Assembly (NCBI GenBank): GCA_030446715.1
Contig: JAUJMU010000004.1
Location: forward strand, 62,001-126,000
Origin: Cytophagales bacterium
GTDB taxonomy: Bacteria; Bacteroidota; Bacteroidia; Cytophagales; 172606-1
Direction of reading: 5' to 3'
Length of the DNA stretch: 64,000 nt
Below the pieces are notes generated by a model, which saw only the letters and a program-made list of their open reading frames with translations, was not told where the DNA came from and did not search any database. A program made the position numbers and the translations under genes. This document shows positions 12,124 through 54,195 of the stretch, one piece after another. The number at the start of each line of letters is the position of its first letter. The stretch's first letter is position 1.

Positions 12124-12620
12124 ATCGAGTAGGTGGCCCCGCTACCAAACGATAGCGGGGTGCACCTCTCACACCACCCTGCGTACGGCTCCCGTACAGG
12201 GCGGTTCACCAGGCATAGGAGCGCCGCTCTTTACACCAGCATTCCCTCGATCCGGGTTTAAGAACAGGCTGGCAAACTATAACGTTTGAACCTCCTGATC
12301 GAATTCAGGACCACCTGGCGTTCGGCCCTTCGTCCCTTGGTGAGACCTCTGTCTAGTCTATCTATGACAGCCCGTGTCCGGGCTTACTATGGCTATGGAC
12401 CGATGAAGCCTAGCTTCAGGTCCACTAGCTGACTTCCTGCTCCTTTTGAGAGCAGCATCTCCCCGGGTAAGACACTTATCCTTCCGTTGATGAGTGCCGC
12501 ATCTACTCCATGTGGTTTGTTGGTCAGGGGCTTCACAAAGGTGGGGAGTGTACAGGGAACTGTGTCAGGGGAAATTGGAGTCCAGTTATCGCTCGTTTTT
12601 GCTACTGCAGTAACGTGCAC
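12124..12620 (-). ncRNA. Group IIC intron ribozyme, lacking its reverse transcriptase
   Basis: Read on the minus strand, the element starts GTGCAC at 12620 directly after the T6 tail of a terminator, the preferred insertion site of group IIC introns. Near the 3' end, domain V (12207-12173) begins GAACCGCC and ends AGGGTGGTG with a GTACGG/CCGTAC stem. Domain VI follows (CCCCGCTA...TAGCGGGG) and the element closes with CCTACTCGAT near 12124. The stretch CTTACCCGGGGAG (about 12475-12463), then GGAAGTCAGC, CATAGTA and GGGACGAAGGGCC resemble the Oceanobacillus iheyensis IIC intron as I remember it. At 497 nt there is no room for the maturase ORF in domain IV. The 5' part of domain I looks shortened or divergent, so splicing ability is unproven. 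Confidence 0.7.
12397..12423 (-). repeat. 27-bp GGACC...GGTCC palindrome inside the intron
   Basis: Minus strand: GGACC, then TGAAGC CTA-like loop GCTTCA, then TCGGTCC, ending before ATAG. It lies between GTCAGC and CATAGTA, which are nearly adjacent in the O. iheyensis intron as I recall it, so it looks like an insertion. It resembles the four 30-bp palindromes in the IS3-type copy at 50.0-50.7 kb. Confidence 0.6.
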
Positions 12621-44669: not shown

Positions 44670-47600
44670 ATGACAACTCAGGAACTGCTTATACTCCTAC
44701 AAGTCAACCGAACCATCGCTGCTGTCCGGGAGCGGAAGGAACTCGCTGCCGTCCTATTCGAGCAAATCAGACTACACATACCCGTAGATGATATAGGTAT
44801 TTTAGTCCCGGACAAGACGGCCACCTACTGGCAGGACTGGTGCAAGGTGGAAAATGGTCCGGAGACGGAAGCAGCTACGGGCTGGCAGCAACCAAGCCCC
44901 GGCGGAGTCCAGCCCGTAGATTTTCCGTTAACAGAGGTGCTTAGTCACGCGGGCATGATGACTGTGGCCGATTTCCTGACCCGGTACCCGAACCATTCTT
45001 TCGGGCAAGCGTTGCAGGAGGCTGGTCTGCGGGAAATGATTTTTACGCCCCTGGTAACTGGTAACCAAAAGACAGGCGTCTTATTTTTGAGTGCCCAACA
45101 GGAAGGCAGTTACGCGGAACAGCACCTCCCGCTGATCCAAGCCATTGCTGAACAGGTAGCCGTCGCCGTAGCCACTATCCTGGCTAATGAGGAGATCCTG
45201 GAAAGGGAAAAGGAGAAAGACTTGCTACTTGGTATCAGTGAATCTATTGCTACCGTGCGTGACAAGCAGGACCTATTTCGCGTGATTAAGGAAACGGCTC
45301 AGCAGGCACTGCCCGTCTCGCCGGAGTTCTTCCACATTTACCTCTGGCACCCCGAGCGGAGCGAAGTTGAATTCTACCTGCAGCTCACTACCCCAGCGTA
45401 CGCCGCCGACCCGGTGGACCAGCGAGTACTGGCCCGGCGCTTTTTCCCAGTTACCCCGGGCGACCCCGTGGACCGCGTGTTGCAGGCGCCGGGTGCTCTC
45501 TCCATGCGCACTGCTGCCTACAGCCAAACTCATCCGGATTGGTGGGCCGCTGAACCTATTCTGCACTTTGGGCTTGATGAACTTATTGGTGCCCCGCTGC
45601 GGGTAAGCGGGCAGTTGCTGGGCTATGTCAATGTATTTGCTCCCCGGCAGGCTCCCTTCCCCCCGTCGCACCTGCCGCTGTTTCAGGCCATGGCCGACCA
45701 ACTGGCCGTAGCATTAGCCAACATTCTGGCCAACGAGGAGATTCTCCAGCAGAAGCAGGATATTGAAGAACGGGAACGGGGGAAGGCTACTTTGCTTTCT
45801 ATTAGCGGCGCAATCTCTTCGGCCCGCAATGCTGTGGAGTTACTCACTGTCATCCGGGAAAAAGCCCAAGAATTGATTCCCTTCTACGATACGGGTATTC
45901 TCATTGTTGAATCGGACGGGCAGTACCACTACGATCTAGCGGTGAATCTGCAAGGATGGGACCAATCGAAAACCAACCAGCAGTTATATGCCCAGGGCTT
46001 GCACCGGGTACCTCATCCAGGCTCGGCCATTGAAAGATCGATCAACGAAGTAGAAGCGGCTCAAAGCCCCATCATTCAGGACTACGAGCAGTTGTTTGAG
46101 CAGAATAACCACCCCTTTTTCCCCATACTAAAGGAAGCTGGTTATAAAGAGGGCTTGGCTACCCTGCTCCGGTCAGGTGGAAAAGTATTGGGCATGTTTT
46201 GGCTAAATTCTTTAACCAAAGATCACTTTCACCCCAAACAATTCGAAATCTTCCAGGCCATTGCCGATCAGGTATCCGTAGCCGTAGCCAATATCCTGGC
46301 CAATGAGGAGATTCTCCAGCAGAAGCAGGATATTGAAGAACGGGAACGGGAAAAAGCGTTACAGGTTTCCATCCACCAGGTACTCAGCGAGGAAAAGACC
46401 TGGGAGCGGAAATGGTTTAAAGTAACCATGCACCTGCAGCTGCTCATCCCTTTTGACTACATTATTATCGGAGCAGTATCGGCCAAGGGAGAAAAAGCGT
46501 ACAGTTTTGAGCGCATCGGCAAAGATGAGTACCGGACCATACTCCCCGAAACTTTTCTTTCCCTGAACCAGCTTAACTGGGATCAGTACCACAAATGGCG
46601 GGACGAGATACCCTACAACGGTCCGGCTATCTACAACGGGGAAGATTTTGAAAAGCTTTGCCAGCACTACCGGCTCAAGGCCCTGATTGCAAAAACTTTC
46701 AAAGTACAGTCGAGCCTGGTCTACCCCCTTCGGTTGAGTGAACACACTTTACTGATCCTTTCGATGTTTAGCCGGCAGGAGTCAGCTTTCCTGCCCAAAC
46801 ACGCCTCGCTGCTGGACCGGATCGCCCATACGCTAGCCCTGTCGGTGGAAAGACTACTCGTATACGAGGAAGTGGCCCAGCTGAACGAGAAGTTACAGTT
46901 GGAGAAGGGCTACCTGATGGAAGAGGTAAAGACCAATTACAATTTTGAGGAAATCATCGGCACCAGTCCCGCTTTACAAAAAGTACTCCAATCCATCCGG
47001 AAAGTAGCCCCCACGGAGACTACCGTACTAATCGAGGGAGAAACCGGTACGGGCAAGGAACTGGTTGCCCGGGCCATCCACTACCACTCTCCCCGTAAGG
47101 AGCATCCATTGATTAAAGTAAACTGCGCCGCCCTGCCACCGCAACTGATCGAAAGCGAGCTGTTCGGCCACGAACGCGGTGCTTTTACCGGTGCCACCGA
47201 AAGACGTATTGGTAAGTTTGAACTGGCCCACCAGGGGACCCTTTTCCTGGACGAGATCGGAGAACTTTCCCTGGAACTGCAACCCAAACTCCTGCGGGCC
47301 CTGCAGGAACGAGAAATTGAACGTCTCGGCGGCAAAGCTCCCGTTGCCTGTGATGTACGCATTGTCGCGGCTACCAACCGTAATCTACCGGTAGAAGTAG
47401 CCCAAGGCCGCTTCCGGGCGGATTTGTACTACCGGCTGGGGGTGTTTCCCATTGCTATGCCGGCGCTGCGGGAACGCACTGCGGACATTCCGCTGCTGGC
47501 TACCTATTTTGCCGCCAAGTTTTGCAAGAAGATGGGCAAAGCCTACCAGGGAATTTCGGAAGAATCTATGACCAACATGCTTGCCTACCCCTGGCCGGGC

Positions 47601-47942
47601 AACATCCGGGAGTTGCAGAATGTACTGGAGCAGGCGGTAGTTGTATCGGAAGGGAAGTATCTCAACTGTACTTCTTATTTCTTGAATCGGCCCGCTCCTG
47701 CTACCAAGCATCATTCCCCCGCAACCGTTATCTTGCCTAACACGGACCGCAAAACCTTGGCCGAGCTGGACGAATGGAAAGAGGAACTGGAACGGAAATA
47801 CATTCTGCAAGTACTGGAACAAGCTGGCGGTCGGGTGCGCGGCATTGGCGGAGCGGCCGATCTGCTCGATGTGCACCCCAACACGCTGGAATCCAGGATG
47901 AAGAAGCTAAACCTTACCCGTAAACACGTGGTGAAAGAATGA
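44670..47942 (+). CDS. Sigma-54-dependent activator with four GAF-type modules
   Basis: I chose the ATG at 44670 ([17 protein letters not shown]), giving about 1090 residues. Three GAF domains (about 5-185, 195-370, 385-560) are each followed by LANEEIL...EERER helical linkers; a fourth, less typical one spans about 575-745. The AAA+ domain (about 765-1000) has Walker [16 protein letters not shown], the sigma-54 contact loop GAFTGA, Walker [10 protein letters not shown] and the R-finger region [12 protein letters not shown] Fis-type HTH ([21 protein letters not shown]) ends it. GAF modules sense small molecules. It is divergent from the hydrolase set and is its likely regulator. Confidence 0.92.
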
Positions 47943-48189
47943 GTAACGGGTTTATTCTTATGCCAGCAGAACCTTGCTATTGCCGTGCTTGCCAATAACT
48001 AATAGAACATGGCCAGTCAATACGGTTTGCTTCGCTCTCCTTTGTTTTTTAACAGTATGGGCATGAGCAGATAATAAATATAAGCTAAACTGCTAACCGA
48101 TATATGGTCCGTGCTTATAGAGGGCTACGTAACCAGAACGATTCCCAAAAACGTGGGTTATCCGGTACAGGAAAAATAGGGAGGCAAAA

Positions 48190-48276
48190 GGGGCTAAAGT
48201 CGAAAATTACTTGTATCCGAAAGTTATACCCTGAATCAATGTACCCTATATTTGAAAAGACGACATAAAGGGTACA
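48190..48276. promoter_or_regulatory. Candidate res site of the transposon
   Basis: Immediately upstream of tnpR lie TGTACCCTATA (48240-48250) and its near inverse TAAAGGGTACA (48266-48276), 37 bp end to end. Two further half-site-like sequences, TGTATCC and TTATACCCT, lie just before them. Clustered inverted half-sites next to a serine resolvase gene are the layout of res. Confidence 0.45.
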
Positions 48277-48288
48277 AAATCGGGTAGT

Positions 48289-49034
48289 ATGAAAATTGGC
48301 TACGCAAGGGTTTCGACTCAGGAACAAATATTGGACCTTCAGCTGGATGCCCTGAAGAAAGCAGGGTGTGAAAAGATTTTCACCGATAAGGTATCAGGCA
48401 TAAAAGTCCATAAACCCGAGTTTGAGAAACTCCTGCTTTACGCCCGGGAAGGAGACACCATTGTTATTTGGGTAGTGCTACAAATAGGGTACTGATCCAA
48501 TTTTAGAAACACCCTTAATACCACATTGAACCAAGTTTTCAAATTCAGGTAGCACCCTATTTGTAGCACTACCGTTATTTGGAAGCTGGACCTGGTTGGG
48601 CAGGTCCACTAAGCAGTTGATTGAACTGGTGGAAATGCCTGGGAAGCGAGGGATCAATTTGATTTCTCTCAATGACCCGATTGATACCACTTCTCCCAGT
48701 GGCGTCTTAGTCTTTCAAATTTTTTGTGCCCTAGCCGAACACGAGCGGAATCTGATAGTGCAGCGTACCAAAGCCGGGTTACAATCAGCAAGGGCTCGGG
48801 GGAGAATGGGAGGACGTCCACAGGGATTAGCCGTAAAATATCAAAAGGTTGCCCCAGCCGTGAAAGACCTTTATGTAGCGGGGACAAAAGTCCACTACCG
48901 AGATCATGCAATATTTTAACATTGGGTCACGGAGAACTCTATACAAAGTATTACGATTTGCGGGTGTGGATATTAAATCATTCCAGAAAGAGAAAACGAG
49001 GTCAGTTACAGCAATCCCAGAACAAGTATCTTAA
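48289..49034 (+). pseudogene. tnpR: Serine resolvase TnpR, broken
   Basis: MKIGYARVSTQEQILDLQLDALKKAGCEKIF carries the catalytic Ser in ARVST and the usual Q-x2-L-x2-D-x-L pattern. At 48471 a 103-bp element interrupts IVIW|KLD. After it, an extra base near 48590 separates KLD from LGRSTKQLIELVEM. The core continues FQIFCALAEHERNLIVQRTKAGL and RARGRMGGRP. A shift near 48890 precedes the HTH TTEIMQYFNIGSRRTLYKVLR and the stop at 49032-49034. It would resolve cointegrates; as read, it cannot. The adjacent right repeat follows after 33 bp. Confidence 0.85.
48471..48573. mobile_element. 103-bp IS1-type MITE in tnpR
   Basis: Ends GGTAGTGCTACAAATAGGGT and its inverse (right end CCCTATTTGTAGCACTACC) match almost perfectly. 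It is flanked by an exact 8-bp direct repeat GTTATTTG at 48463-48470 and 48574-48581. The GGTAGTG termini and 8-bp duplication are those of IS1-family elements (compare ggtagtggtaa at 8569). No ORF. Confidence 0.88.
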
Positions 49035-49067
49035 TTTATTAAAAGTCTTCTAACCTTCCGCTTCAGT

Positions 49068-49104
49068 GCTATCTTACTTTTGGCCCGAATCGGGAGTTGC
49101 AACC
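49068..49104 (-). repeat. Right terminal inverted repeat of the Tn3-type transposon
   Basis: Exact reverse complement of 33349-33385. The bases beyond (aatac) differ from those left of the left repeat (caatg). Confidence 0.9.
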
Positions 49105-49608
49105 AATACCCAAACCAGCAGAGCCTGGATCAAAAAAGGTCAACAAAAGCATATCCCGGCTAATTCAGGCAGGAAACGGGTCAATATCAACGGAGCCGTC
49201 AATGCTCTTGATCCCTGTGAGGCAGTCGTAGTGGAAGCAGAAACCGTTAATGCCCAAAGCACTGTTACCCTTTATGAGAAACTGCTGGAGAAGAATCCGG
49301 GCAAAAAGCTGGTGCTGATCTGCGATAATGCCCGCTACTACCGCAGCCAGTTCTTACAGCAGTGGCTCAAAGGCCAGCCTTTGATTGAGCAGTGGTTTTT
49401 GCCCACTTACTCACCTAACCTCAACATCATCGAAAGGCTGTGGAGATTTATGAAAAAGCAGGCCATCGGTCTTTCATTTCACTCCACCTTCAAAGCCTTT
49501 AAAAAGAGTATCCTCCACTTCTTTGAGCACCTTCTGTTTGGACTTGCTAGCTTTGACTGGAGGAAAAAGCCAGGCAGATTTAACAGATTATTAAATCTGA
49601 CCACATGA
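49105..49608 (+). pseudogene. IS630-family transposase, C-terminal fragment
   Basis: The frame begins at the transposon edge with NTQTSRAWIKKGQQKHIPANSGRKRVNINGAV and continues through KLVLICDNARYYRSQFL (second Asp) and PTYSPNLNIIERLWRFMKKQ (Glu). The first catalytic Asp and the DNA-binding half are missing, cut off at 49104/49105. It differs from the IS630 at 34.8-36.2 kb and from the one at 50.9-51.6 kb. It ends at 49608, where the IS3-type copy starts. Confidence 0.8.
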
Positions 49609-50061
49609 AAAACAAGTGTTTGACCAGGCATTCAGGCAGATGGCAGCAGAGCTATCTCATGCCCGGGGATCAGTGAAAACAGCGGCTGCCGGGTCAGGGA
49701 TCGACCCGGGCAGAATCAGCAAATGGAGGCAGCATCAGAATGGTAGCCTGGCAGTAAGTGAGAAGCCAGGTCTTTCAGCCGGACAGGCAGAAATCAGACG
49801 CTTACAAAAGGAGTTGAAGGAGGCTCAGTCAGAGGGCGATATATTATGGAGGCCGGTCAGCATCTTTTCCAGGGGAGAGGGCAGATATTCCGGTTCATAA
49901 AGGAGCACCGGGAAGTATTTGCTGTTGAAAAGATGTGTAAGGTGATGAGAGTAAGTAAGCGGTTACTATTACTGGCTAAAACACCCTGTTGGTTCCAGAG
50001 TAATCAAAGAACAGGCGTTACTGGTTGACATGGATAGAATTTATAATGAGAGTAAAAGCGC

Positions 50062-50091
50062 GGACCCTAATCAGGGCCTGGTCTGAGGTCC
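50062..50091 (+). repeat. 30-bp GGACC...GGTCC palindrome A
   Basis: Interrupts the conserved IS3 motif KAR-YGSPRI: KAR, ten residues, then GSP. The frame is kept. Inner part contains ATCAGG and TCTGA. Confidence 0.8.
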
Positions 50092-50162
50092 ATGGCAGCC
50101 CCGGGATCACCAGTGAGTTGAAAGAACCCGGTATCCGGGCTTCTCCTCCACGGGTAGCCAGG

Positions 50163-50192
50163 CCGACCCGGTGCTCAGGCACGTGCAGGTCC
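50163..50192 (+). repeat. 30-bp palindrome B (left end CGACC)
   Basis: Interrupts RVAR-LM(R/K)KA: RVAR, ten residues, then MKKA, in frame. Ends CGACC...GGTCC with GTGC/GCAC inside. Confidence 0.7.
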
Positions 50193-50420
50193 ATGAAGAA
50201 AGCCAGTATCAAAAGTATTATCCGCAGGAAATACCGGGTGCAGACTACTGATTCTGACCACGAATACGCCATAGCTGAAAACCACCCCTGACCGGGACTT
50301 GTCAGCACAGGCCACCGGGCAGAAGCGGGTGTCCGGTCTGACTTATATCAGAACCCCGGAAGGATGGCTGTACCTGAGGGCTATCCTGGATCTGGCTGAC
50401 AGAAAGGTGGTTGGCTGGGC

Positions 50421-50450
50421 GGACCTCAGATGAGATCTGATCTCAGGTCC
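50421..50450 (+). repeat. 30-bp GGACC...GGTCC palindrome C
   Basis: Interrupts VVGWA-LSDTM. Reads GGACCTCAGAT...ATCTCAGGTCC; in reverse orientation it shares ATCAG and ATCTGAGGTCC with A and D. Confidence 0.8.
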
Positions 50451-50633
50451 ATGAGTGATACGATGAAAGCTTGTGACCCCAGGATAGCTGCCTGGAAAAT
50501 GGCGGTCAGAAACAGACCTGTAAAGCAGGATTTATTGTTCCATTCCGATAGAGGTATTCAATATGCCTGTACCGATTTTAAAGAACAGTTGAAAGGATTG
50601 CCTGTACAGCAAAGCATGAGCAGAAAAGGCAAT

Positions 50634-50663
50634 GGACCCCAAATCAGGCATGGTCTGAGGTCC
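50634..50663 (+). repeat. 30-bp GGACC...GGTCC palindrome D
   Basis: Interrupts the IS3 motif SRKGN-CWDNAVAESFF. Very close to A: both contain AATCAGG or AAATCAGG and end TGGTCTGAGGTCC. Confidence 0.8.
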
Positions 50664-50879
50664 GCTGGGATAACGCAGTAGCCGGAAGCTTTTTTAAAAC
50701 GCTGAAAACAGAGCTGGTTTACCATGAAGATTATCTGACAAAGCAACAGGCTGAACTCTCTGTTTCCGAATATATTGAGGGCTGGTATAACAAAAGAAGA
50801 CGCCATTCCGCACCGGGCAACACAAGTCCCCGACAGTACCAGCCTTATCTTGAACAGGAAAGATTAGCTGCCTGAAAAA

Positions 50880-51563
50880 TTCCTCCAGTAAACTGTTGCA
50901 ATTCCAATTGGTGCGTTCTCTTTTTTTTTTCGTTGGTGACTACCGTGGGCCGGGTATTCTTTTCGGCCCACCCGTAACAGGAGGTGGGCTTTTCACAGAC
51001 GGAGAATTCATCAAACTTGACTACTGCCGTTTTCTCATCGGCTGCCGGCAGGGTCTGTCTGAGTTGCCGGAGAAAAACCAGCTGCTCACCGGCTTTGGCA
51101 TTGCCGTAATCACAATGGGCCTTCTGATGGGTGAGCCCCGTACGGGCAAGCAAGTCGTAAATACCTGACTTATACTCCACCTGGCAGACCTGCTTCAAAT
51201 ACTGGCACATAAGCCTGCCCGTCCAGATGTTGCCCTGAAGACTAACTTCAAATGGGCGTTTGCTCAACAGAACCGCTCTGAAGGCAAGTGTACCGGCCTG
51301 AGTTAACTGACTGGCCTGGGGACGAAGGTGGGTTGGCAGAGTATCCTGAAGCCGCCTTCCTGATACACCTTCAGGTACAATCGCCGCTTTTGTGGTTTAT
51401 GCCCAGAAGATGGGCAATCTGGTTAATCTGCCGGCCTTGCCAGTACAAGTGAACACTCCGTAGTTTAGTGCGGATGTACTCGGCCTGGTTCTTTTGAAAG
51501 TAGCTTTGGTATTCCTCCTCATCAAAGCCTTTTTTGCTCAAATTTGTCTCGCTTATAACCCAT
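50880..51563 (-). pseudogene. IS630-family transposase, N-terminal part, frameshifted
   Basis: From an ATG at 51563, pieces in several frames read KKGFDEEEYQSYFQKNQAEYIRTKLRSVHLYWQG (HTH region), NQIAHLLGI, then RPFEVSLQGNIWTGRLMCQYLKQV, YKSGIYDLLARTGLTHQK and VVKFDEFSVCEKPTSCYGWAEKNTRP with the first catalytic Asp. The C-terminal half is cut by the IS3-type copy that ends at 50875. It overlaps in domain content with the fragment at 49105-49608, so the two are not halves of one element. Confidence 0.7.
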
Positions 51564-51623
51564 GCTCCAATTTACCAAAATATTAACCTGAAGGGAATAA
51601 AAATGAGGCACAATCTTCCGGTA

Positions 51624-51683
51624 AAGCCCCGGTAGCTAAAAATCATGCTTCCTGCTTCGTATCCGTAGTGCCTCCGGTTTTAC
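51624..51683. repeat. About 60-bp imperfect direct repeat, copy 1
   Basis: Resembles 52342-52402: shared ccggtagct, catgcttc, tatccgta and tgcctccgg in the same order (roughly 75% identical by eye). The two copies bracket the small membrane-protein gene. Confidence 0.5.
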
Positions 51684-51923
51684 CGGCCTTGGGCAATTTA
51701 AATGCGTGGCCGGAGTGTTTGTCAATAAAATCAGCAGAGCTGTCATTTCTCAAGCCAAAGGCTTGAGAACCAAAACCACGAAGTACGGTTCGGCGCTGTC
51801 GCGGACAGTTCGTGCCGGTGCGGTGCCGGTATAGTATCAACAAGAAATTTTGTAAACAATAACAGTAATTGTGTAAGCAACGAAGGAATAAACGATTTAA
51901 TTTTGACAAAAAAACCAACAATC

Positions 51924-52338
51924 ATGACTCCTCCTGACTTTGCTTTGCTGAACAGCGGCCTGTTTCTGTTATTTGGCATGATCACCGGCGCCTGGAAACA
52001 CCAGAAAATACTGCATTCTCCGCAGCGCCGGGCTCCCGTTTACGTTGACATTGCCCACCGGGCCAGCCTGATGTATAGTTTCGCTTACCCTGGTGATCTG
52101 GAAGCTGGCAGAAACGGCACCGTTTCCAGTGGCCATCACCTGGTTTGCAGTGGTGGCCCCGGTTGCTTTTTTCTGGGCCGCTACGGGCACCTACTCGTAT
52201 CTGGGTCTGGTCAACCGGACCCAAAATCAATTTTCCGGCGGAAGCTTCAGGTCGGTTTTCGGGATGTATTTACTGATCTTCTTCGAGATCAGCGGTGTAA
52301 TGCTGCTGCTGGCGGGTTTCCTTGTAAAACCGGGATGA
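51924..52338 (+). pseudogene. Small four-helix membrane protein, one frameshift
   Basis: The ATG at 51924 starts MTPPDFALLNSGLFLLFGMITGAWKHQKILHSPQRRAPVYVDIAHRASLMYSFA. An extra T at about 52086 must be removed to continue LVIWKLAETAPFPVAITWFAVVAPVAFFWAATGTYSYL and FGMYLLIFFEISGVMLLLAGFLV. The result is about 137 residues with four transmembrane helices and the conserved PYVDIAHR-like loop I associate with a family of small bacterial membrane proteins of unknown function. Apart from the single base it looks whole. Confidence 0.6.
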
Positions 52339-52341
52339 TTT

Positions 52342-52402
52342 CCGGTAGCTGAATACCATGCTTCTTATCTGGTATCCGTACTGCCTCCGGCGGCTTTGCC
52401 GG
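52342..52402. repeat. About 60-bp imperfect direct repeat, copy 2
   Basis: Partner of 51624-51683, just after the membrane-protein stop codon. It ends in a ccggcggctttgccgg hairpin. Confidence 0.5.
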
Positions 52403-52555
52403 AAAACGCTTCCGGAAGCCCGGGCCGCATTTGAGGCACTTTTGCCTTAAAATGCCTCATATCCGGTGCAATGCCCTGGTCTTCTACAGGAGTATCCGCC
52501 AGTTCATAACGATGATTCCAGGTATTTATTTAACAGACTATAAACACTGAATTTT

Positions 52556-53641
52556 ATGAAAAAGCACAAACTATTTCCTCTTGTACTGGCTGCCATTTTA
52601 ACCGGTGCAGGCGCTTGCAAAAAGACAGAAGAAGCCGGATTGCAAAATGTAAATTATGATGCAGTATACGTGGTAAACGGGGAGAGCAACACCATCTCGG
52701 TGATTGATCTGAACAGGGATGCAGTCGGCCACACTTTCCGGCTTGGCGAAACCTCTGCGGGCGGACATGGAGGGCATGGCGGTAATACGGCCACTATCTC
52801 CTGGCCGCATCACGTGGCACTGCACCCTTCCAAAGAGCAGTTAGCCATCGGTGTTCCGGGTATGGATCTGAGCAGAGGACACGGGAGCTCAACTGCCGGC
52901 ATGGCCGGTAAAGTAGCGCTTATGGACGCATCGACAGGGGCAGTACAGCAAACCCTCACACTCCCGGCAATGAACCACAACGCCATTTTCTCTCCCGACG
53001 GAAAAGAACTCTGGACTTCACAGATGGCAGAGCCGGGCAAAGTGCTGGTATACGATGCGGCTACCCTGGGCTTGAAAAATACAATAGCTGTCGGAAATGA
53101 GCCGGCCGAAATTACTTTCTCAGCTGATGGAAAGGTAGCCTTCGCAGCCAATGTAAAGGATAATACCGTAACGGCCATTGATCCGCAAAGCAAAGGGATA
53201 AAGGCAACCATTCCGGCAGGCGAAGATCCGGTTGGTGCATGGCCGGGCAGCGACAACCGCATGTACGTGGACAATGAACACGGAAAATCCATAACGGTTA
53301 TCAACGCTGCTACCCTACAGGTGGAAGAAACTATTCCTTTGGGTTTTACGCCTGCCTATGCCGCTTACCGCGAAGGCACCCCGCCCGAACTGTGGGTGTC
53401 TGACCCGGACAACGGGAAAGTACATTATTTCCATCACATGAACGGGGCATGGATGAATCACGGCAGTATTGCTACCGGTGCGGGTGCCCATGCGATTGTT
53501 TTCAGCCGTGATTTCCGCAAAGCATATATTACCAATCAAATGGCCGGTACAGTATCGGTGCTCAGTGTGCAGGAGAAGAAGAAGCTGAAAGACATACCTG
53601 TCGGGCAGAAGCCCAATGGTATTCTTATCCGCTATAGGTAA
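52556..53641 (+). CDS. YVTN-type beta-propeller lipoprotein
   Basis: 361 residues with lipoprotein signal MKKHKLFPLVLAAILTGAGAC. Repeated blades follow: AVYVVNGESNTISVIDLN, HHVALHPSKEQLAIGVPG, HNAIFSPDGKELWTSQM, EITFSADGKVAFAANVKDNTVTAIDP and AIVFSRDFRKAYITNQMAGTVSVLSV. This is the seven-bladed cytochrome-d1-like/YVTN propeller without haem ligands evident. A Gly/His-rich insert (GGHGGHGGN) near residue 70 could bind metal. The gene is intact; the role, perhaps extracellular binding, is unknown. Confidence 0.82.
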   Translation: MKKHKLFPLVLAAILTGAGACKKTEEAGLQNVNYDAVYVVNGESNTISVIDLNRDAVGHTFRLGETSAGGHGGHGGNTATISWPHHVALHPSKEQLAIGVPGMDLSRGHGSSTAGMAGKVALMDASTGAVQQTLTLPAMNHNAIFSPDGKELWTSQMAEPGKVLVYDAATLGLKNTIAVGNEPAEITFSADGKVAFAANVKDNTVTAIDPQSKGIKATIPAGEDPVGAWPGSDNRMYVDNEHGKSITVINAATLQVEETIPLGFTPAYAAYREGTPPELWVSDPDNGKVHYFHHMNGAWMNHGSIATGAGAHAIVFSRDFRKAYITNQMAGTVSVLSVQEKKKLKDIPVGQKPNGILIRYR

Positions 53642-53697
53642 ACAACATAAGCAGCTGTTAGTTGAATGGACAAACGAGATCCTTTCCTTCTGTCAAG

Positions 53698-53836
53698 GGT
53701 AGTTATTCAAAAGGTGTGGATGGCATTTGGTGAGTCAGGTAGACAGGCCAGCCAAAACGGTTCTTTTGGTCGGTCGGTCGTTACCCAGTTCCTGACTGAA
53801 CGTCTGTGTTGTCATCCACACCTTTCAAGAACTACC
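53698..53836. mobile_element. 139-bp IS1-type MITE candidate
   Basis: Left end GGTAGTTATTCAAAAGGTGT and right end (reversed) GGTAGTTCTTGAAAGGTGTG both continue into GGATG, giving an inverted repeat of about 24 bp with a few mismatches. The GGTAGT termini recall IS1-type ends. No direct repeat flanks it, and no ORF is inside. Confidence 0.55.
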
Positions 53837-54195
53837 AAAACATTCAACTTATTTATAGGATAAGCATAAGGGTAAAGTCTAAGTTGCCTGTCTCAGCATA
53901 AATGATACACTTGTGGTCCGTTCTGTCCGGCCCGTTACTTCGCTTTCCTCATCCATGCTGAATTCCAGTTCATTATTCATGTGTGGCTTTTCTGGAGTGG
54001 TTGCCGCCTTACCCCGGGTGGCCAGGCAGGCTCCCCGGCTGCTCCCACTGGCCTCCATTCACCTTAATCTGCCGTTCGGCAACGAAAATACGCTTTTCGT
54101 CCAGAAATTATATACCCTTCACGGGGCCGTAGTCTACATTTGCTTCAGTCAAGCCAACCTGACTATTTAATCAGCTACGTTTTACACAAAATCTC

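Follow-up and report, generated by a model that had tools for sequence, protein, structure and literature searches.

Ciliate internal eliminated sequences and minimal introns are tiny, precise inserts in genes that do no harm if they are removed, a likeness to the elements described here. The translational bypassing elements (byps) of Magnusiomyces capitatus mitochondria reportedly form hairpins and are mobile, and Prevotella, which provides another point of comparison, belongs to the Bacteroidota. In the sections of one review relevant here (PMC5009743), the precedents for bypassing are T4 gene 60 and 81 inserts in Magnusiomyces mitochondria, and a single sentence reports a translational hop of 29 nt in a Prevotella loescheii adhesin gene and remarks that follow-up is lacking. 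Two groups of palindromes are also comparable: Rickettsia palindromic elements, mobile palindromes that enter reading frames, are about 150 bp long and often in frame in the portion cited (PMC10969869), and REP sequences, linked to REP-associated tyrosine transposases (RAYTs), are 20-40-nt palindromes in many copies, described as extragenic and as having GTAG or CGTC tags.

Here we describe a family of 27-33-nt elements concentrated in transposase genes of several unrelated insertion sequence (IS) families, with filled and empty sites, nesting, inversion, arm covariation in two classes and transposed carriers. Like byps, as characterised in the parts cited (PMC5009743, PMC8211752), they are short frame-breaking inserts at many positions in protein genes; unlike byps, they reside in bacterial chromosomes, almost only in transposase genes as sampled, and usually replace one base; the likeness is one of description, and bypass is putative here. 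The Prevotella loescheii hop spans a 29-nt untranslated stretch and the commonest net insertion here is +29, but that gene encodes an adhesin and not a transposase, and the case is taken here from that one review sentence (PMC5009743). The elements share entry into reading frames with the Rickettsia palindromic elements but are mostly frame-breaking, and share size and copy number with REPs but are intragenic with GGACC ends. By eye, no TA boundaries of the ciliate type and no splice signals were seen. A limited open-access literature search returned no title or abstract opening on short hairpins restricted to transposase genes.

The window, i.e. the whole stretch of 64,000 nucleotides analysed, contains the following features (fetched loci are given below as L numbers and genomes as G numbers):

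49539..50906, plus strand: IS3-type IS unit with four elements, its ends common to two more copies (blastn)
49860..50875 (start approximate), plus strand: orfB-like transposase remnant, from alignments to the hairpin-free copy L087
50062..50091, plus strand: element A, 30 nt, replacing one T of a tyrosine codon in the YGSPRI motif; site empty in L006, L087, L089 and L091
50164..50192, plus strand: element B, 29 nt, replacing TG in the R-L-M-K-K-A motif, net +27; site empty in L087, L088, L089 and L091
50421..50450, plus strand: element C, 30 nt, a near-perfect palindrome replacing one A in the VVGWA-MSDTM motif
50634..50663, plus strand: element D, 30 nt, replacing the T of a cysteine codon in KGN-CWDNA
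12397..12423, minus strand: 27-nt member GGACC-TGAAGC-TAG-GCTTCA-TC-GGTCC; matching site filled in the congener locus L122

Re-reading of the sequence bore out the preliminary description of A, C and D as 30-mers with GGACC...GGTCC ends at these positions, as well as its account of the flanks, of the similarity between A and D and of the likeness of C; its count of four exact 30-bp segments holds for these three but not for B, which has 29 nt (50164-50192). The counterpart of B in relatives begins with GGACC, and the window B with CGACC. Alignment to hairpin-free IS3 relatives, a step that the preliminary description had proposed, defined the insertion points (exchanged base between hyphens: GCGC-T-ATGG at A, GGGC-A-ATGAG at C and AAT-T-GCTGG at D, with TG lost at B), and no target duplication was seen at any of the four sites of the window copy. 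Because A, C and D each add net 29 nt, the frame is broken at all three. The earlier suggestion that both A and B are read in frame is right for B (29-2=27), which is read through, but wrong for A, which is net +29, follows a 1-nt deletion and meets a TGA when read in the upstream orfB frame (by eye). Besides its elements, the window orfB shows a 2-nt deletion, a 1-nt insertion and a 1-nt deletion before A when compared with L087; the intact relative L089 belongs to the IS3 family (NCBIfam NF033516). In a blastn search with window positions 46001-54000, L005 (99.05%) and the congener locus L086 (97.0%) each spanned exactly 49539 to 50906 and gave no other alignment, and the unit is present at three loci in two genomes. 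The window copy is a decayed member of an insert-carrying IS lineage. Its element C is identical at 30 of 30 positions in the IS copy L050, though the two insertion sequences are only 58.8% identical (blastn), and is also matched by the R1 model at G000:C7:112421-112450; element D is inverted in copies L006, L014 and L052. An Rfam search of window positions 49500-51000 with E up to 1 gave no match. A transposase-like open frame lies directly 5' of the IS3 copy, at 49066-49608, and resembles IS630 by eye, which makes this a stack of insertion sequences.

The family has an outer stem of GGACC/GGTCC, and other hairpin types measure 16-23 nt. A de-duplicated scan of the loci fetched to that point gave 120 distinct instances, a sample enriched for insertion sequences because many loci had been fetched with IS queries; a similarity scan had listed 41 elements in the window and the first 20 stretches, and a laxer scan of the window and the next 20 gave 26 rows, weak ones among them. 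In the 6.43-Mb genome the bare motif GGACC-N18-22-GGTCC shows hardly any enrichment (81 matches versus 71 in the reversed control); the inner sequence, rather than the bare end motif, defines the family. An inner hairpin with compensatory changes is clear in two classes, the 27-mers (consensus GGACC-TGAnnn-NNN-n'n'n'TCA-TC-GGTCC) and the C class (GGACC-TnAnAT-NNN-ATnTnA-TnTnA-GGTCC), and in many C-class rows the loop equals the 3' bulge (by eye). Among the ten hand-picked 27-mer and C-class rows used for the model, all 110 of 110 pair cells were standard and five of 11 pairs varied on both sides, and none of 500 shuffles reached the covariation score of these rows; 53 paired cases among the collected instances had been selected for pairing. 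Outer stems also vary as pairs (AGACC/GGTCT in L059, GGATC/GATCC in L102 and L099). When 85 distinct inner sequences were folded, 32 exceeded 95% of shuffles in stability, with a mean z of -1.70; the inner part is a strong hairpin in some members, not in every one. Template-switch correction could contribute to the matching arms. Further hairpin types occur in the same genes (TTGACC/GGTCAA, CGGATG/CATCCG, CTGAGC/GCTCAG, GACTGA/TCAGTC, GGAGC/GCTCC and GGATC/GATCC). At a neighbouring IS3 site, L006 and L050 (T2 site) and L088 have 16-17-nt GGATC...GATCC hairpins that lack the inner part, and related ones were observed at other loci.

Hairpin-free copies defining the sites were available for IS3 (L087, L089, L091), IS1182 (L150, L159, L170) and IS21 (L052). 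A 30-mer usually substitutes for exactly one base (net +29), which breaks the reading frame. The net gain was the element length minus one at IS3 sites A, C, D and T, at IS21 codons 237 and 358 and at IS1182 codons 102 and 289 (L149, L173), minus two at B, and minus three in some J and C variants (by eye); the 27-mers at IS1182 codon 382 also gave net +29, and most examined sites showed +29, +28 or +31. Element lengths at one site differ modulo 3, and in several elements the entering frame runs into a stop. Target site duplication was absent where an empty counterpart was compared, one base, sometimes two or three, being replaced by 30-mers; the 27-mer of L064 has GT on both sides as read by eye from the filled copy alone. 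Diverged copies use the same sites, at times with a different or inverted element: the A site is occupied by another subtype in L088, two unrelated hairpins lie near IS1182 codon 248 in different copies, and both orientations relative to the gene occur (IS1182 codons 352 and 382). The arms of the elements at IS1182 codon 102 (L149, L165, L168, L151) stay matched through paired differences. Nesting is seen in L177, where a 30-mer replaces one T of an older element (compared with L151), and in one IS1182 copy (L160:1689-3052), where six sites hold nested elements and the outer part is degenerate at one of them. Some of the nested pairs of L160 combine unrelated hairpin types. At L015:10185-10492 one site's left flank is fused to a different site's right flank, as would result from recombination between two elements of one IS3 copy.

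A mobile element is recognised by homologous copies in unrelated places and by corresponding empty sites, and both are present here. The preliminary description had raised the idea of a mobile 30-bp palindrome family, and the search of the genome and its relatives supports it: relatives by inner sequence recur elsewhere in the genome and in related genomes in many copies, with empty and filled sites and with different or inverted elements at one site. It had also regarded the same four segments at the same places in intact, active IS3 relatives as a refutation. Such sharing does occur in the same genome, the congener and Rhodocytophaga, and some interrupted copies of other families are otherwise intact, yet empty copies exist, so the shared positions show recurrent site use and not ordinary transposase sequence. 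The elements also travel with their carriers. An IS1182 with three hairpins is present in four full copies of 1566 bp with 100% match, two with clean 4-bp direct repeats (GGGT, GGGC) and two without; insert-bearing insertion sequences moved after acquiring their elements.

Contrary to the extragenic position of REPs, 112 of the 120 instances lie in or beside transposase genes by tblastn or Pfam: 105 have a tblastn match to transposases found here within 450 nt on each side, and seven more were assigned through Pfam frames. The remainder comprises one instance that is IS3 orfA-like by eye (L014:16046), six in genes not assigned to transposase (one in L078, one in L121, four in L122), a class that includes window position 12397, and one probable chance match. 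Of the 29 loci fetched by the structure model, a less biased set, 26 are transposase loci, 21 by tblastn and five by Pfam (L117, L118, L126, L138 and L142, the last via the corresponding place in L072); of the other three, L121 and L122 are without transposase assignment and L120 (G001), a weak model match inside a gene that is ferritin-like by eye, was taken as chance. Carriers belong to IS3, IS21, IS66, IS110, IS1182, ISL3, DDE_Tnp_1 and DDE_3 (NCBIfam or Pfam), the DDE_3 carriers being presumably of IS630 type. The surrounding frames tried for the gene around window positions 12397-12423 gave no Pfam or NCBIfam match. The congener locus L122 carries four elements close by, apparently within the same gene, for which tblastn matches were limited to two Adhaeribacter plasmids.

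In this sample the elements are carried by the window genome and by related Cytophagales near Rhodocytophaga. A model search of 24 genomes with E up to 1 gave 41 matches in G000, 25 in G002, 28 in G004, 18 in G006 and two weak strand-matches in G001, and none in the other 19, three of which are of the same family. Under stricter filters (E up to 0.005), matches among 296 Bacteroidota genomes were confined to the window's own, with none in the 295 others. A widened pattern for one element class found only Rhodocytophaga aerolata and the Cytophagales MAG YX2bin28 in genome_contigs, a scan that may omit records very near the window genome. Together with a neighbouring protein whose end looks T9SS-like by eye, this places the window in the Bacteroidota, among the Cytophagales and close to Rhodocytophaga. 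The exact pattern, limited to element C, had no match in genome_contigs or viral_contigs, the widened pattern had no viral match, and plasmid searches gave no useful match. In a third genus of the family, L154 (G005) shows by eye degenerate elements in an IS3-like gene, which the model missed.

The interrupted genes differ in condition. The IS1182 copy L168 has eight inserts and, over 477 alignable codons, no other indel or frameshift and no stop; two of these inserts, at codons 289 and 434, show weak or different folding. Together, six full-length IS1182 copies of the Rhodocytophaga type hold 20 inserts (L149 three, L156 two, L162 three, L165 two, L168 eight, L171 two), with no other frameshift and a single stop (L156 codon 94). 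Apparent stops at codons 310 and 382 were border artefacts of one alignment and were gone in another. Over 36 pairs of IS1182 copies dN/dS was 0.070-0.175, alike with and without inserts. For IS21, L013 (three hairpins, no stops; a 24-nt insert that does not fold was left out of this count) compared with the hairpin-free L052 gave dS 0.72 and dN/dS 0.092 over 403 codons, and 0.04-0.18 in each of five segments. L007 and L015, which share an identical element, gave 0.095 over the 228 codons upstream of it and 0.073 over the 210 codons downstream, with no stops and no gaps in the aligned part shown; L007 ends early at its 3' end. Apart from its three inserts the IS3 copy L088 is free of lesions over codons 3-307, L102 shows no further lesion from codon 3 to codon 185, where its sequence ends, and an IS21 frame of 448 codons in L012 is open across two elements. 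Further lesions are found in the window IS3 copy, L005, L086, L050, L099, L104, L106 and L114, the IS1182 copies L173, L174, L176 and L177 (truncated) and both G002 copies (L151, L160) are decayed, and the IS21 loci L057, L129, L011 and L012 show stops and gaps in an alignment at 65-68% identity. Closely related copies with several elements in common fall into two sets, the decayed one of the window, L005 and L086 and the identical one of the L149 group.

We tentatively favour, at slightly less than an even chance, the reading that these are mobile micro-hairpins which reside in transposase genes and are probably skipped when the genes are expressed. Frame-breaking inserts stand in otherwise intact genes with low dN/dS; synonymous sites between IS1182 copies are far diverged or saturated, and the selection may predate the insertions. 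Insert content is untied to relatedness (L170 has none, its nearest relatives L171 two and L168 eight), which may mean recent insertions and an older signal of selection.

This last point also suits a different explanation, to which we give a substantial chance that is nonetheless less than even: an active process would strike preferred transposase sites and kill the genes, the interrupted copies being recently dead, some having moved in trans, under selection that predates the insertions. Broken frames and the lost base fit inactivation, as do the many decayed copies and the acceptance of different elements by one site (the A site in L088; IS1182 near codon 248), and intact hairpin-free relatives with similar inverted repeats (L150, L159, L170) could move interrupted copies in trans. 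Inserts would, however, have to outnumber ordinary lesions, as in the six IS1182 copies with 20 inserts against one stop and no frameshift, and inactivation so frequent and recent that ordinary decay is yet to set in needs transposase genes to take up insertions at a rate far higher than that of ordinary disabling mutations. Eight inserts in one copy also count against inactivation, although only the first would matter, as do arms kept matching by paired differences at IS1182 codon 102 (L149, L165, L168, L151). Clean genes with several interruptions, and paired changes at fixed positions, speak against simple death.

A dedicated host system that recognises transposase genes and writes several hairpins into each copy to silence the insertion sequence would account for the concentration in transposase genes of several unrelated families, for several inserts per copy and for the recurrent positions; we regard it as unlikely, given that insert-bearing insertion sequences have moved and that the protein codons remain conserved. 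Still less probable are in-frame peptide insertions translated within the transposase, the analogy with Rickettsia palindromic elements drawn in the preliminary description. Element B (net +27, read through) and the IS21 frame of L012, open over 448 codons across two elements, are compatible with it, but net lengths are mostly +29, +28 or +31, several elements bring a stop in the entering frame, lengths at the same site differ modulo 3, and 27-33 nt compares with about 150 bp, so the analogy is unsupported for most sites. Chance palindromes, local template-switch mutations or assembly artefacts deserve hardly any credence, despite the lack of enrichment of the bare GGACC...GGTCC motif and the fact that template-switch correction could match arms without selection, and are refuted for the family as a whole by exact filled and empty sites and by the recurrence of homologous inner sequences at dozens of unrelated positions across several separate genome records, one of them a single contig.

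Under the skipping reading, a 27-33-nt element would enter a recurrent reading-frame position, 30-mers usually in exchange for one base, would then move along with its insertion sequence and may itself receive further elements. Several genes with multiple interruptions retain codons under purifying selection, from which we infer that the inserts are probably skipped at expression, which could occur through ribosomal bypassing or removal from the RNA; skipped inserts would cost little to the insertion sequence by which they spread. That full transposases are made despite up to eight frame-breaking hairpins, each skipped or removed, so that hairpins parasitising parasites form a bacterial counterpart of massive mitochondrial bypassing, is a proposal we make with reserve, as a plausible one that falls somewhat below even odds. 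Skipping would need a new activity in these cells. Excision of the whole element would leave the replaced base unrestored, and a leftover C at A, D and IS1182 codons 102 and 289 would change Tyr or Cys to His or Arg. No matching take-off and landing codons were seen at the sites read by eye, and no rule emerged when target duplications and matched codons were sought by eye; according to the part of the review cited, such matches are imperfect also in mitochondria (PMC5009743). Simple bypass is made less likely by the unrestored base, by elements lying in either orientation and by the lack of matching codons at the sites read by eye; both orientations suit a DNA-level role at least as well as skipping.

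If the interrupted genes work, these cells would have a general way to ignore inserts in messages, so far known mainly from T4 gene 60 and the mitochondria of one yeast, and insert skipping would be directly testable in Rhodocytophaga. If the genes are dead, a process repeatedly writes hairpins at fixed transposase positions, which would be a novel type of mutation or an anti-transposon activity. Either way, there is a second layer of selfish or defensive DNA within insertion sequences, in genes that gene finders likely report as simple pseudogenes.
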